A stretch of 64,000 bases of DNA from Gammaproteobacteria bacterium (GTDB lineage Bacteria; Pseudomonadota; Gammaproteobacteria; HTCC5015), in contig JACDDA010000004.1 of the NCBI GenBank assembly GCA_013817245.1, forward strand, positions 124,001 through 188,000, read 5' to 3'. Below are positions 52,452 to 54,698 of this stretch, in pieces. The notes under the pieces were generated by a model. The model saw nothing but the letters and a program-made list of their open reading frames with translations. It had not been told where the DNA came from and did no database searches. The position numbers and the translations under genes are program-made. Numbering within the stretch: the stretch's first letter is position 1; every line of letters starts with the position of its first letter.

Positions 52452-52480
52452 TTGACCCGCAAATAAAATCAAATGATAAT
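52452..52480 (+). promoter_or_regulatory. Sigma70 promoter of the porin gene
   Basis: TTGACC (52452-52457), a 17-bp spacer and GATAAT (52475-52480) form a near-consensus promoter 38 bp before the porin ATG. The -10 is embedded in a Fur-like sequence. Confidence 0.85.
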
Positions 52481-52488
52481 TATTCGTA
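52474..52488 (+). promoter_or_regulatory. Fur-like box over the porin -10 element
   Basis: TGATAATTATTCGTA keeps a perfect left half (TGATAAT) of the 7-1-7 Fur consensus and 4 of 7 positions of the right half. Its position over the -10 would allow iron-dependent repression. The sequence is AT-rich, so a chance match is possible. Confidence 0.45.
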
Positions 52489-52517
52489 TTAACAACTAAA
52501 CTAAAGAGAACAGACAA

Positions 52518-53639
52518 ATGAAAGCCCGGAAATTCATCAGCGGTATAGCTACCGCTAGTTTAATAAGTGTATGTGCACAAGCTGTTGCCCAACCGAGTAA
52601 TCTAGACGCCCGCATTGAAGCTCTCGAAAAACAAGTTACCGTTCTGGCTGATCAACTCGAAAAGAAAACCGCAACGAATAATTCAACTAACGATAATATT
52701 CATCTGGGTGGTTATGGTGAAATTCATTACAATAATTATGACGATGGTATCGATAATAAAATCGATTTTCATAGATTTGTTCTCTTCGTTGGCCATGACT
52801 TTAGTGACGACATACGATTTTTTTCAGAAATCGAAATTGAACACGCTCTCGCTGGCGAAGGCAAACCGGGAGAAGTTGAATTAGAACAAGCTTATATTGA
52901 ATTTGCTGTAAATAAATCTTTAAATATTAAAGGCGGTTTGTTCTTGATACCTATTGGTATTCTTAATGAAACTCATGAACCACCGACATTCTATGGCACA
53001 GAACGTAATCCTATAGAAAACAAAATAATTCCTAGTACTTGGTGGGAAGGCGGCATAGGTGCAAACGGCAATATGGGCGCTGGCTTTTCTTATGATATCG
53101 CAGTGCATTCTGGTTTAGACGGTGGCACAAACATTAGAGATGGTCGCCAAAAAGTAGCAGAAGCAACCGCTAACCAATTAGCAACTACAATGCGTATTAA
53201 ATATACAGGTGTCGCTGGCCTCGAAATCGCCACTTCGCTACAAAGACAAAATGACATGACACAAAATGATACCGACATTATTGATGGCGCAACATTATTT
53301 AGTGCGCATATCGTATATCAAGGTGATAAATTAGGTGCGCGTGCACTATATGCAGACTGGGAATTTGACGGTAACTCTGCCGGATCAAAAGATGAGCAAC
53401 AAGGTTTCTACATCGAGGGAAGTTATAAAATCATTAGTCAGCTTGGTGTATTTGCGCGCCAGAACATATGGAATAACAGCAGCGCTAATATATCAACAGT
53501 AAAAAATAGCACTCAAACTGATTTTGGCTTCAACTACTGGGCACACGAGAATGTTGTAGTAAAGTTAGATTTCCAACAACAAAATGTTGAAGCTGGCAAC
53601 AAAGATGGCTACAACATTGGCTTAGGCTATCAATTTTAA
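52518..53639 (+). CDS. Outer-membrane porin, phosphate-selective porin O/P-like
   Basis: A 373-residue outer-membrane protein. A signal peptide ends near QAVAQ (about residue 25). A short coiled coil follows (LDARIEALEKQVTVLADQLEKK in residues 29-50), which trimeric OprO/OprP-like porins use in the periplasm. The rest is a beta-barrel starting IHLGGYGEIHYNNY and ending in aromatic YQF, the sorting signal. Many uncharacterised relatives of the OprO/OprP group transport unknown anions or small solutes. The promoter carries a Fur-like box. An FMN-binding protein gene follows 73 bp downstream, with a perfect hairpin between. Confidence 0.85.
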   Translation: MKARKFISGIATASLISVCAQAVAQPSNLDARIEALEKQVTVLADQLEKKTATNNSTNDNIHLGGYGEIHYNNYDDGIDNKIDFHRFVLFVGHDFSDDIRFFSEIEIEHALAGEGKPGEVELEQAYIEFAVNKSLNIKGGLFLIPIGILNETHEPPTFYGTERNPIENKIIPSTWWEGGIGANGNMGAGFSYDIAVHSGLDGGTNIRDGRQKVAEATANQLATTMRIKYTGVAGLEIATSLQRQNDMTQNDTDIIDGATLFSAHIVYQGDKLGARALYADWEFDGNSAGSKDEQQGFYIEGSYKIISQLGVFARQNIWNNSSANISTVKNSTQTDFGFNYWAHENVVVKLDFQQQNVEAGNKDGYNIGLGYQF

Positions 53640-53669
53640 TCTTTGTCATTTCACACATAAGAGCAGAAT

Positions 53670-53696
53670 CGTCAGTATAAAGTCCTTATACTGACG
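53670..53696 (+). other. Perfect hairpin between porin and FMN-binding genes
   Basis: CGTCAGTATAA (53670-53680) pairs perfectly with TTATACTGACG (53686-53696) around AGTCC. No U-run follows. It ends 16 nt before the next ATG, which has no Shine-Dalgarno. It may protect porin mRNA, act as a leaky end, or control the next gene. Confidence 0.7.
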
Positions 53697-53712
53697 ACTC
53701 GCCAACAACAAA

Positions 53713-54243
53713 ATGAACATAGCAAAATCCCTTCTCTTGTTAGCAATATTATTACCAGCACTCGGTTTCCCCGCACATCCAGAAGAAAATAATGCTATTT
53801 CGAATTTCATTAGCAATGAGTTTTCAAGCTCTGCCATAGAAAAAGAAATATGGCTCAACAGCGAGCTTAAAAGAGATATTAAAAATATTATGCAGCACGA
53901 CTATCATCAATTTAGAATTAAATATTGGAAACATCAAACACGAACAGCTTGGGTGCTAGAAGAAATAGGCAAAGAACGATTAATTACCAGTGGATTTATA
54001 ATCCACAATAAGCAGATTGAAAAAACTAAGGTGCTGCAATATAGGGAAAGTCGTGGCAGCGAAATTCAACGTGATTTTTTTACACAACAGTTTATTGGCT
54101 TAACGATTAATCAAAAAAACAAGCTAGACAAACCCATCGATGGCATTAGCGGTGCGACATTGTCGGTTCGAGCGATGAAAAAAATGGCCGCACTTGCTTT
54201 ATATTTACACGATCATGTCAATCAAACACCACAACATCTGTAA
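53713..54243 (+). CDS. Exported FMN-binding (flavinylated) protein
   Basis: A 176-residue protein with a signal peptide or N-terminal membrane anchor (about residues 4-20). The C-terminal FMN-binding domain of the RnfG/NqrC type carries DGISGATLS (143-151). In this family an ApbE transferase links FMN to the last Thr of the SGAT motif, here Thr149. No ApbE gene is in the window. Such proteins shuttle electrons outside the cytoplasmic membrane. It follows the porin gene and converges with a 2-bp gap on a small multi-histidine membrane protein. A weak or absent Shine-Dalgarno precedes the ATG. Confidence 0.85.
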   Translation: MNIAKSLLLLAILLPALGFPAHPEENNAISNFISNEFSSSAIEKEIWLNSELKRDIKNIMQHDYHQFRIKYWKHQTRTAWVLEEIGKERLITSGFIIHNKQIEKTKVLQYRESRGSEIQRDFFTQQFIGLTINQKNKLDKPIDGISGATLSVRAMKKMAALALYLHDHVNQTPQHL

Positions 54244-54245
54244 AT

Positions 54246-54698
54246 TTATTTCCGCCCAAGCATTATATGCAAAGGTAAACATACCCCCGCAAGCAACCCA
54301 GCCAACCAATGCACTACACTTGCATAATCACGTAACATTTCATGACTTGCGTAATACAGCAAACAAGCTGTCACTGTTAGAATTAATAAATTTGTTAACA
54401 ATAGGCTTCCAGCAATACGATTACGCCCCAGCGCCCAAGCTTGTCGCATATGTCCATTTAACAAACTACCGAATAAAAAAATAAATAGAAATGCCCATAC
54501 TCCATGCCATTGCAAAACAACATATTCTAAAGGATGTGGCATCGATCCATATTCATCTTCCAAACGATCAAAATAATGAAACCATAACCACGCAATACCT
54601 GTCACCATTAAACCCAGACTTGCCAGGTACAACAAATAACGATGCCATTTTTCTAAACGGATTGTTTCTAATCGTGGCATGGCAATTGTCTTATCCAT
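54246..54698 (-). CDS. Four-helix multi-histidine membrane protein, likely b-type cytochrome
   Basis: A 150-residue membrane protein with about four transmembrane helices. Histidines are placed to bind haem: His65 and His83 near the ends of helix 2, His130 and His144 near the ends of helix 4, with His19 before helix 1. The spacing resembles small cytochrome b / DUF4405-type or PepSY-linked electron carriers, but I do not recognise the exact family. It lies opposite and adjacent to the FMN-binding gene, which suggests quinol-to-flavin electron transfer. Upstream on the same strand is ahpC, separated by a terminator. The start could also be Met7. Confidence 0.7.
   Translation of the reverse strand: MDKTIAMPRLETIRLEKWHRYLLYLASLGLMVTGIAWLWFHYFDRLEDEYGSMPHPLEYVVLQWHGVWAFLFIFLFGSLLNGHMRQAWALGRNRIAGSLLLTNLLILTVTACLLYYASHEMLRDYASVVHWLAGLLAGVCLPLHIMLGRK

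Follow-up and report, generated by a model that had tools for sequence, protein, structure and literature searches.

The locus described here raises the question whether a porin, an exported flavin-binding protein and a small membrane protein, encoded side by side in a genome of the Gammaproteobacteria, act together in electron transfer, and which donor and which substrate such a module would have. The window, i.e., the whole stretch of DNA that was analyzed, comprises 64,000 nt of contig JACDDA010000004.1. An earlier note on this DNA had described three open reading frames, a flavinylation motif (DGISGATLS) and four histidines, all of which were confirmed by ORF and family analysis. The features of the locus are as follows:

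52452 to 52480, plus strand: sigma70-type promoter, TTGACC-17 nt-GATAAT, 10/12 consensus positions, 37 nt 5' of the porin start
52474 to 52488, plus strand: Fur-box-like sequence TGATAATTATTCGTA lying over the -10 element, matching 11/14 positions of TGATAATNATTATCA
52518 to 53639, plus strand: porin gene, Porin_O_P (OprO/OprP-like) family; ORF of 373 aa, with orthologues beside FMN_bind genes and homologues above the PF07396 cut-off
53713 to 54243, plus strand: FMN_bind gene, exported protein of 176 aa with the motif DGISGATLS and a match to PF04205
54246 to 54698, minus strand: gene of a four-helix cytochrome b561/DUF4405-like membrane protein of 150 aa, assigned by family matches, invariant histidines and a structural model

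The FMN_bind gene and the gene of the 150-aa protein are arranged tail to tail with 2 bp between their stops. The trio is bordered upstream by a ribosomal-protein/dnaB region and at the other end by a peroxiredoxin gene, which is separated from the 150-aa cytochrome gene by a terminator-like site. In the following, FMN1 designates the window-type FMN_bind protein that is paired with a porin, and 4TM the family of the 150-aa protein.

The 176-aa protein scores above the cut-off of PF04205 (31.7 bits, cut-off 22). A Foldseek search of the PDB with its AlphaFold model (pLDDT 92) gave NqrC and RnfG with a probability of 1.00, and it shares with them the FMN_bind fold and the S/TGAT flavinylation motif. 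In contrast to these subunits, to which it is ~15% identical, it is a small carrier encoded outside any NQR or RNF operon. T149 of the DGISGATLS motif, pointed out in the earlier note, is invariant across 20 homologues and is the predicted site of FMN attachment. The motif was found in 80 of 81 scanned rows, DAISGATLS being the lone exception. The apbE gene, which that note had proposed to look for, is present in three copies: behind an NQR operon, near a thioredoxin-like gene, and in a cassette on contig C5 of the same genome. The second copy (L044:5309-8329) is accompanied by the thioredoxin-like protein and a protein that resembles DUF3570 and carries an SGAT motif; this is probably a separate flavinylated system. 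The C5 cassette (L035:5669-8423, minus strand), a second complete flavinylation unit of the genome, encodes a DUF6662 outer-membrane protein, an FMN_bind protein, ApbE and a divergent four-helix protein. It adjoins iron genes of the imelysin, DUF1513 and DUF1111 types, the DUF1111 label being assigned by eye.

For the porin of the window, the profile search gave no Pfam porin match, and the PF07396 cut-off was not reached. Its orthologues in L050 and L065 (54% and 42% identical) do exceed this Porin_O_P cut-off, so that the proposed likeness to OprO/OprP is borne out through homologues. Comparison of the porin profile with solved structures returned chance-level matches only. The pairing with FMN_bind is strongly conserved. 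Among 94 relatives, 20 other genomes contain an FMN_bind homologue, and in 18 of the 19 readable relatives from the class the orthologous porin lies directly 5' of it. At L062, the porin is found 2.4 kb upstream of FMN_bind instead of directly adjacent. A scan of named genomes yielded 80 FMN_bind loci, and a porin of the same family is located directly upstream in 77 of the 78 that offered room for it.

The third gene is less uniform. For 79 loci the same-strand gene after FMN_bind could be assigned: it encodes a PepSY_TM protein in 70 (69 by script and L076 by eye) and a 4TM protein in nine, and both together were found in none. L126, whose contig breaks off ahead of the third gene, was left outside the 79 and carries the default PepSY label in the FMN1 and porin trees. 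PepSY_TM is also the directly following same-strand gene in all 19 readable relatives from the class. The nine porin-FMN_bind-4TM operons (L065, L070, L075, L079, L099, L104, L116, L121 and L138) come mainly from Gallionellales and relatives (Gallionellales/Rhodocyclaceae). The trio postulated as a module does recur in other genomes, as these nine same-strand operons, but its usual third member is PepSY_TM. Since no PepSY_TM gene is present at the trio locus and a convergent 4TM gene lies there instead, the window appears to carry a partner swap with an inverted gene. The two proteins differ in architecture. From its sequence, the PepSY_TM of these operons has a periplasmic domain of ~160 residues flanked by two membrane helices, one on either side, whereas the 4TM protein has four helices and lacks such a domain. 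Homology between them was considered and rejected, as hhalign pairs one helix only (probability 29%); PepSY_TM and the b561-like cytochrome seem to occupy the same slot without detectable common origin. Their mutual exclusion in one slot argues that both do the same job, namely the delivery of electrons to the FMN protein.

What kind of protein fills this slot in the window can be seen mainly from its family. The AlphaFold model of the 150-aa protein (pLDDT 87) contains four helices. Helix 2 carries H65 and H83, helix 4 carries H130 and H144, and each of these histidines is conserved without exception in the 17 family sequences, which bears out the earlier description of a four-helix protein with two pairs of histidines. 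With DUF4405 (PF14358) the window protein reaches 17.2 bits and stays below the cut-off of 26.7, while the homologue from L079 exceeds it with 28.5 bits. At an E-value of 0.01, cytochrome b561 (PF01292) is matched by 13 of the 17 family members and DUF4405 by 11; the window protein has no PF01292 match at this threshold, and the homologues from L065 and L079 exceed the cut-off of that profile (37.2 vs 30.1). Neither cut-off is reached by the window protein itself, so that its family membership is derived from these relatives. The best membrane-protein fold match is cytochrome b of E. coli hydrogenase-1, which is weak, and the 4TM profile gave chance-level matches only against solved structures. 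Two haems with bis-histidine ligation, H65-H130 and H83-H144, are probable from the conserved residues. Charge counts assign the C-terminus and the basic loop that joins helix 2 to helix 3 to the cytoplasmic side. This topology would put the H65-H130 haem near the periplasm and the H83-H144 haem near the cytoplasm.

To see where the family occurs irrespective of FMN_bind, 369 genomes of the class were searched for 4TM proteins. The gene is rare (11 of 369 genomes). Besides the window protein, eight strong homologues were detected, one of them on contig C5. Seven of the eight, including the C5 protein, are encoded in FMN_bind-apbE-4TM cassettes. For the nearest homologue, G122 (L036), neither FMN_bind nor apbE was found in the stretch read, and a contig end is close by. 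The cassettes from other genomes of the class are L037, L038, L039, L040, L041 and L151; two of them, L037 and L038, have a porin of the window's family directly upstream.

Phylogenetic trees were used to follow the swap. The trees of FMN1 and of the porin place the window among the PepSY-type gammaproteobacteria, and in them the nine 4TM loci cluster by themselves. In that of 4TM, the window protein groups with the proteins of the apbE cassettes and not with those of the porin-FMN1 operons (support 92/92 and 94/92). This pattern suggests two separate recruitments of 4TM into the slot. AU tests of a single origin of the swap gave p 0.71 for FMN1, p 0.17 for the porin and a borderline p 0.05 for 4TM, and once L039 was omitted the 4TM tree no longer opposed a single origin. 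Because these tests fail to reject one origin, independent swaps are regarded as likely only. The nine 4TM operons all belong to a single related group and hence represent few independent events.

The same tree bears on a different reading of the locus, in which porin and FMN_bind alone form the module, FMN1 is fed by another membrane protein, and the window cytochrome is unrelated or serves the C5 cluster. The cytochrome gene of the window is convergent to the other two genes, is not co-transcribed with them and lacks its own Fur-like box (best match 9/14), which counts against the preferred model of a common module and fits this alternative, as does the placement of the window protein with the apbE cassettes, for which the AU value of 4TM is borderline. 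A candidate for the other membrane protein also exists. The sole PF03929 (PepSY_TM) match of the genome is located next to a TonB receptor, ~7 to 9 kb ahead of the first position of the window. On the other hand, nine operons carry the 4TM family directly after FMN1, the usual PepSY partner is missing at the locus, the C5 cassette already has its own 4TM protein, and it is unlikely that so rare a gene came to lie beside FMN1 by chance. Overall, we regard an unrelated neighbor as unlikely, and prefer the reading that the convergent cytochrome would serve the FMN protein of the window. The PepSY_TM protein mentioned above (464 aa; C4:115461-116600, L042:5267-8845) and its neighbor, a TonB-dependent receptor, are a probable siderophore reductase pair.

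Regulation was analyzed as a possible indication of the substrate. The sigma70 promoter that had been described as near-perfect matches the consensus at 10/12 positions at its place, but is not above chance for the region, in which nine promoter-like sites were observed and 10.6 were expected from shuffles. As such matches are no more common than in shuffles, the promoter is weak on its own and was not used as evidence. The Fur-like box on the -10 element was also found as described (11/14). Taken alone it has p ~0.035 and is one of ten comparable 15-mers in the window; it becomes credible because a box is kept upstream of the orthologous porins. Of 70 loci, 64% have a Fur-like 15-mer with at least 11/14 matches close to the start of the porin gene. 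The frequency was 4.1% in dinucleotide shuffles and 4.5% in upstream regions taken elsewhere in these loci. Perfect boxes occur in L070, L079 and L096. In six loci of the Gallionellales type the operon has a divergently oriented fur gene as its neighbor, and feoB adjoins it in L099, L138 and L064. These fur and FeoB neighbors point to iron. At L045, a PepSY-type module is adjoined by di-haem/imelysin genes like those near the C5 cassette. Imelysin operons are under Fur control and have a link to iron uptake (PMC3143127); for PepSY-like flavinylated clusters, an association with iron assimilation and Fur has been described (PMC8238504). The genome under study contains the main fur gene. Another Fur-family regulator, one of four in the genome and not the main Fur, is encoded in the window at 1363 to 1716 on the minus strand (PF01475, E 6e-13).

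A substrate other than ferric iron, such as copper, another metal or an oxidant, would require that the iron-linked regulation is indirect. A role in copper was proposed for the PepSY_TM protein CrpH (PMC13038864), the gene next to the trio encodes a peroxiredoxin, and the porin may admit other substrates. Against this stand the Fur-like boxes at 64% of the porin promoters, the fur and feoB neighbors, and the terminator-like site between the peroxiredoxin and cytochrome genes; we consider such a substrate improbable. It is very improbable that electrons run inward and that the module aids Fe(II) oxidation in the iron-oxidizing Gallionellaceae, with the window as a relative. The 4TM operons are indeed concentrated in Gallionellales. 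However, Fur-type repression is not expected for iron oxidation genes, adjacent feoB suggests uptake, and the porin-FMN module occurs widely in Shewanella, Alteromonadales, Thiotrichales and further groups that are not known as iron oxidizers.

We therefore return to ferric iron and to electrons that move outward. The module is best read as an iron-repressed assimilatory ferric reductase with a swapped membrane partner, an assignment that we hold with somewhat better than even confidence. Members of the Porin_O_P family are known for phosphate, not for iron. By analogy to this phosphate-selective family, the porin may admit a small anionic ferric chelate, which is a guess. The FMN_bind protein would receive its flavin on T149 from an ApbE whose gene lies elsewhere in the genome, and would reduce Fe(III) in the periplasm. 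It would then be re-reduced by the four-helix, probably di-haem b membrane protein, itself fed by electrons from the membrane, for which quinol is assumed as the source. In most bacteria with the module this membrane step would be carried out by the two-helix PepSY_TM protein, the product of the third operon gene; in the window and in the separate Gallionellales/Rhodocyclaceae group, a b561/DUF4405-like protein of other architecture would have taken its slot. The path from haem to flavin to ferric iron under iron repression, as put forward in the earlier note, is well supported by genomics (nine trio operons, apbE and Fur boxes) but unproven; the usual partner turned out to be PepSY_TM, and no importer for the resulting Fe(II) was found among the families searched. 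Profile searches of the genome gave no FeoB, Nramp, ZIP, FTR1 or VIT1, so that the classical Fe(II) routes are missing. Matches to PF02421 were rejected as FeoB, as their length and score resemble those of other GTPases.

Light and colleagues have described related systems, and the trio of the window is a variant of such electron-transfer systems. The closest are the PepSY-like flavinylated systems, which were proposed to function in iron reduction and assimilation and include Fur-repressed examples (Meheust et al., 2021, PMC8238504). They too combine a PepSY_TM membrane protein with a flavinylated periplasmic protein, and the porin-FMN1 pair of the window belongs to such operons. In these systems DUF2271 is the usual flavinylated substrate and the cluster frequently contains apbE, whereas here the substrate is FMN_bind and apbE is mostly located elsewhere. 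Furthermore, the porin is here the constant partner, and in the window PepSY_TM is replaced. The word "porin" is absent from the cited article (PMC8238504). A constant porin with an exchangeable membrane partner was not found in the literature examined here, although it could still be published.

The membrane protein also has known counterparts. Haem b was shown for one DUF4405 protein in vitro and for FezC (Huang et al., 2024, PMC11334425). Like these, the window protein is a membrane protein, and a predicted cytochrome, with four conserved histidines encoded beside flavinylation genes. The published DUF4405 type has six helices, occurs in apbE clusters and is often paired with a flavodoxin-type substrate (PMC11334425); the window protein, by contrast, has four helices, is below the cut-off alone and is encoded beside a porin and FMN_bind. 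To cytochrome b561 and the Ni-hydrogenase cytochrome b (PF01292) it is linked by the homologues of L065 and L079 and by the weak hydrogenase-1 match, but it comprises four helices in 150 aa and is not accompanied by a hydrogenase. With VciB and the ferrisiderophore reductases FoxB, FpvG and FrcB the module would share iron reduction on the periplasmic side, to which it would add a separate flavinylated carrier. To our knowledge, no such carrier is known for FoxB, FpvG and FrcB. All four are inner-membrane proteins, several of them with haems, that reduce iron on the periplasmic side (PMC8891985, PMC8238504); a separate flavinylated carrier is likewise not known for VciB (PMC8238504).

A wider reading of these data can be offered tentatively, at slightly below even confidence. 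A constant flavinylated carrier would be combined with an interchangeable membrane donor in a porin-fed, siderophore-independent ferric reductase, and 4TM would probably have been recruited repeatedly from FMN_bind-apbE-cytochrome cassettes. If this is true, the module would be a widespread reductase for iron uptake in which an outer-membrane pore is a constant component, and a flavin carrier could be wired to differing membrane cytochromes. It would offer a small system for studying how periplasmic flavin proteins recognize their electron donors. It would also give a testable role to unnamed porins and small cytochromes in Shewanella, Alteromonadales, Thiotrichales and the iron-oxidizing Gallionellaceae.
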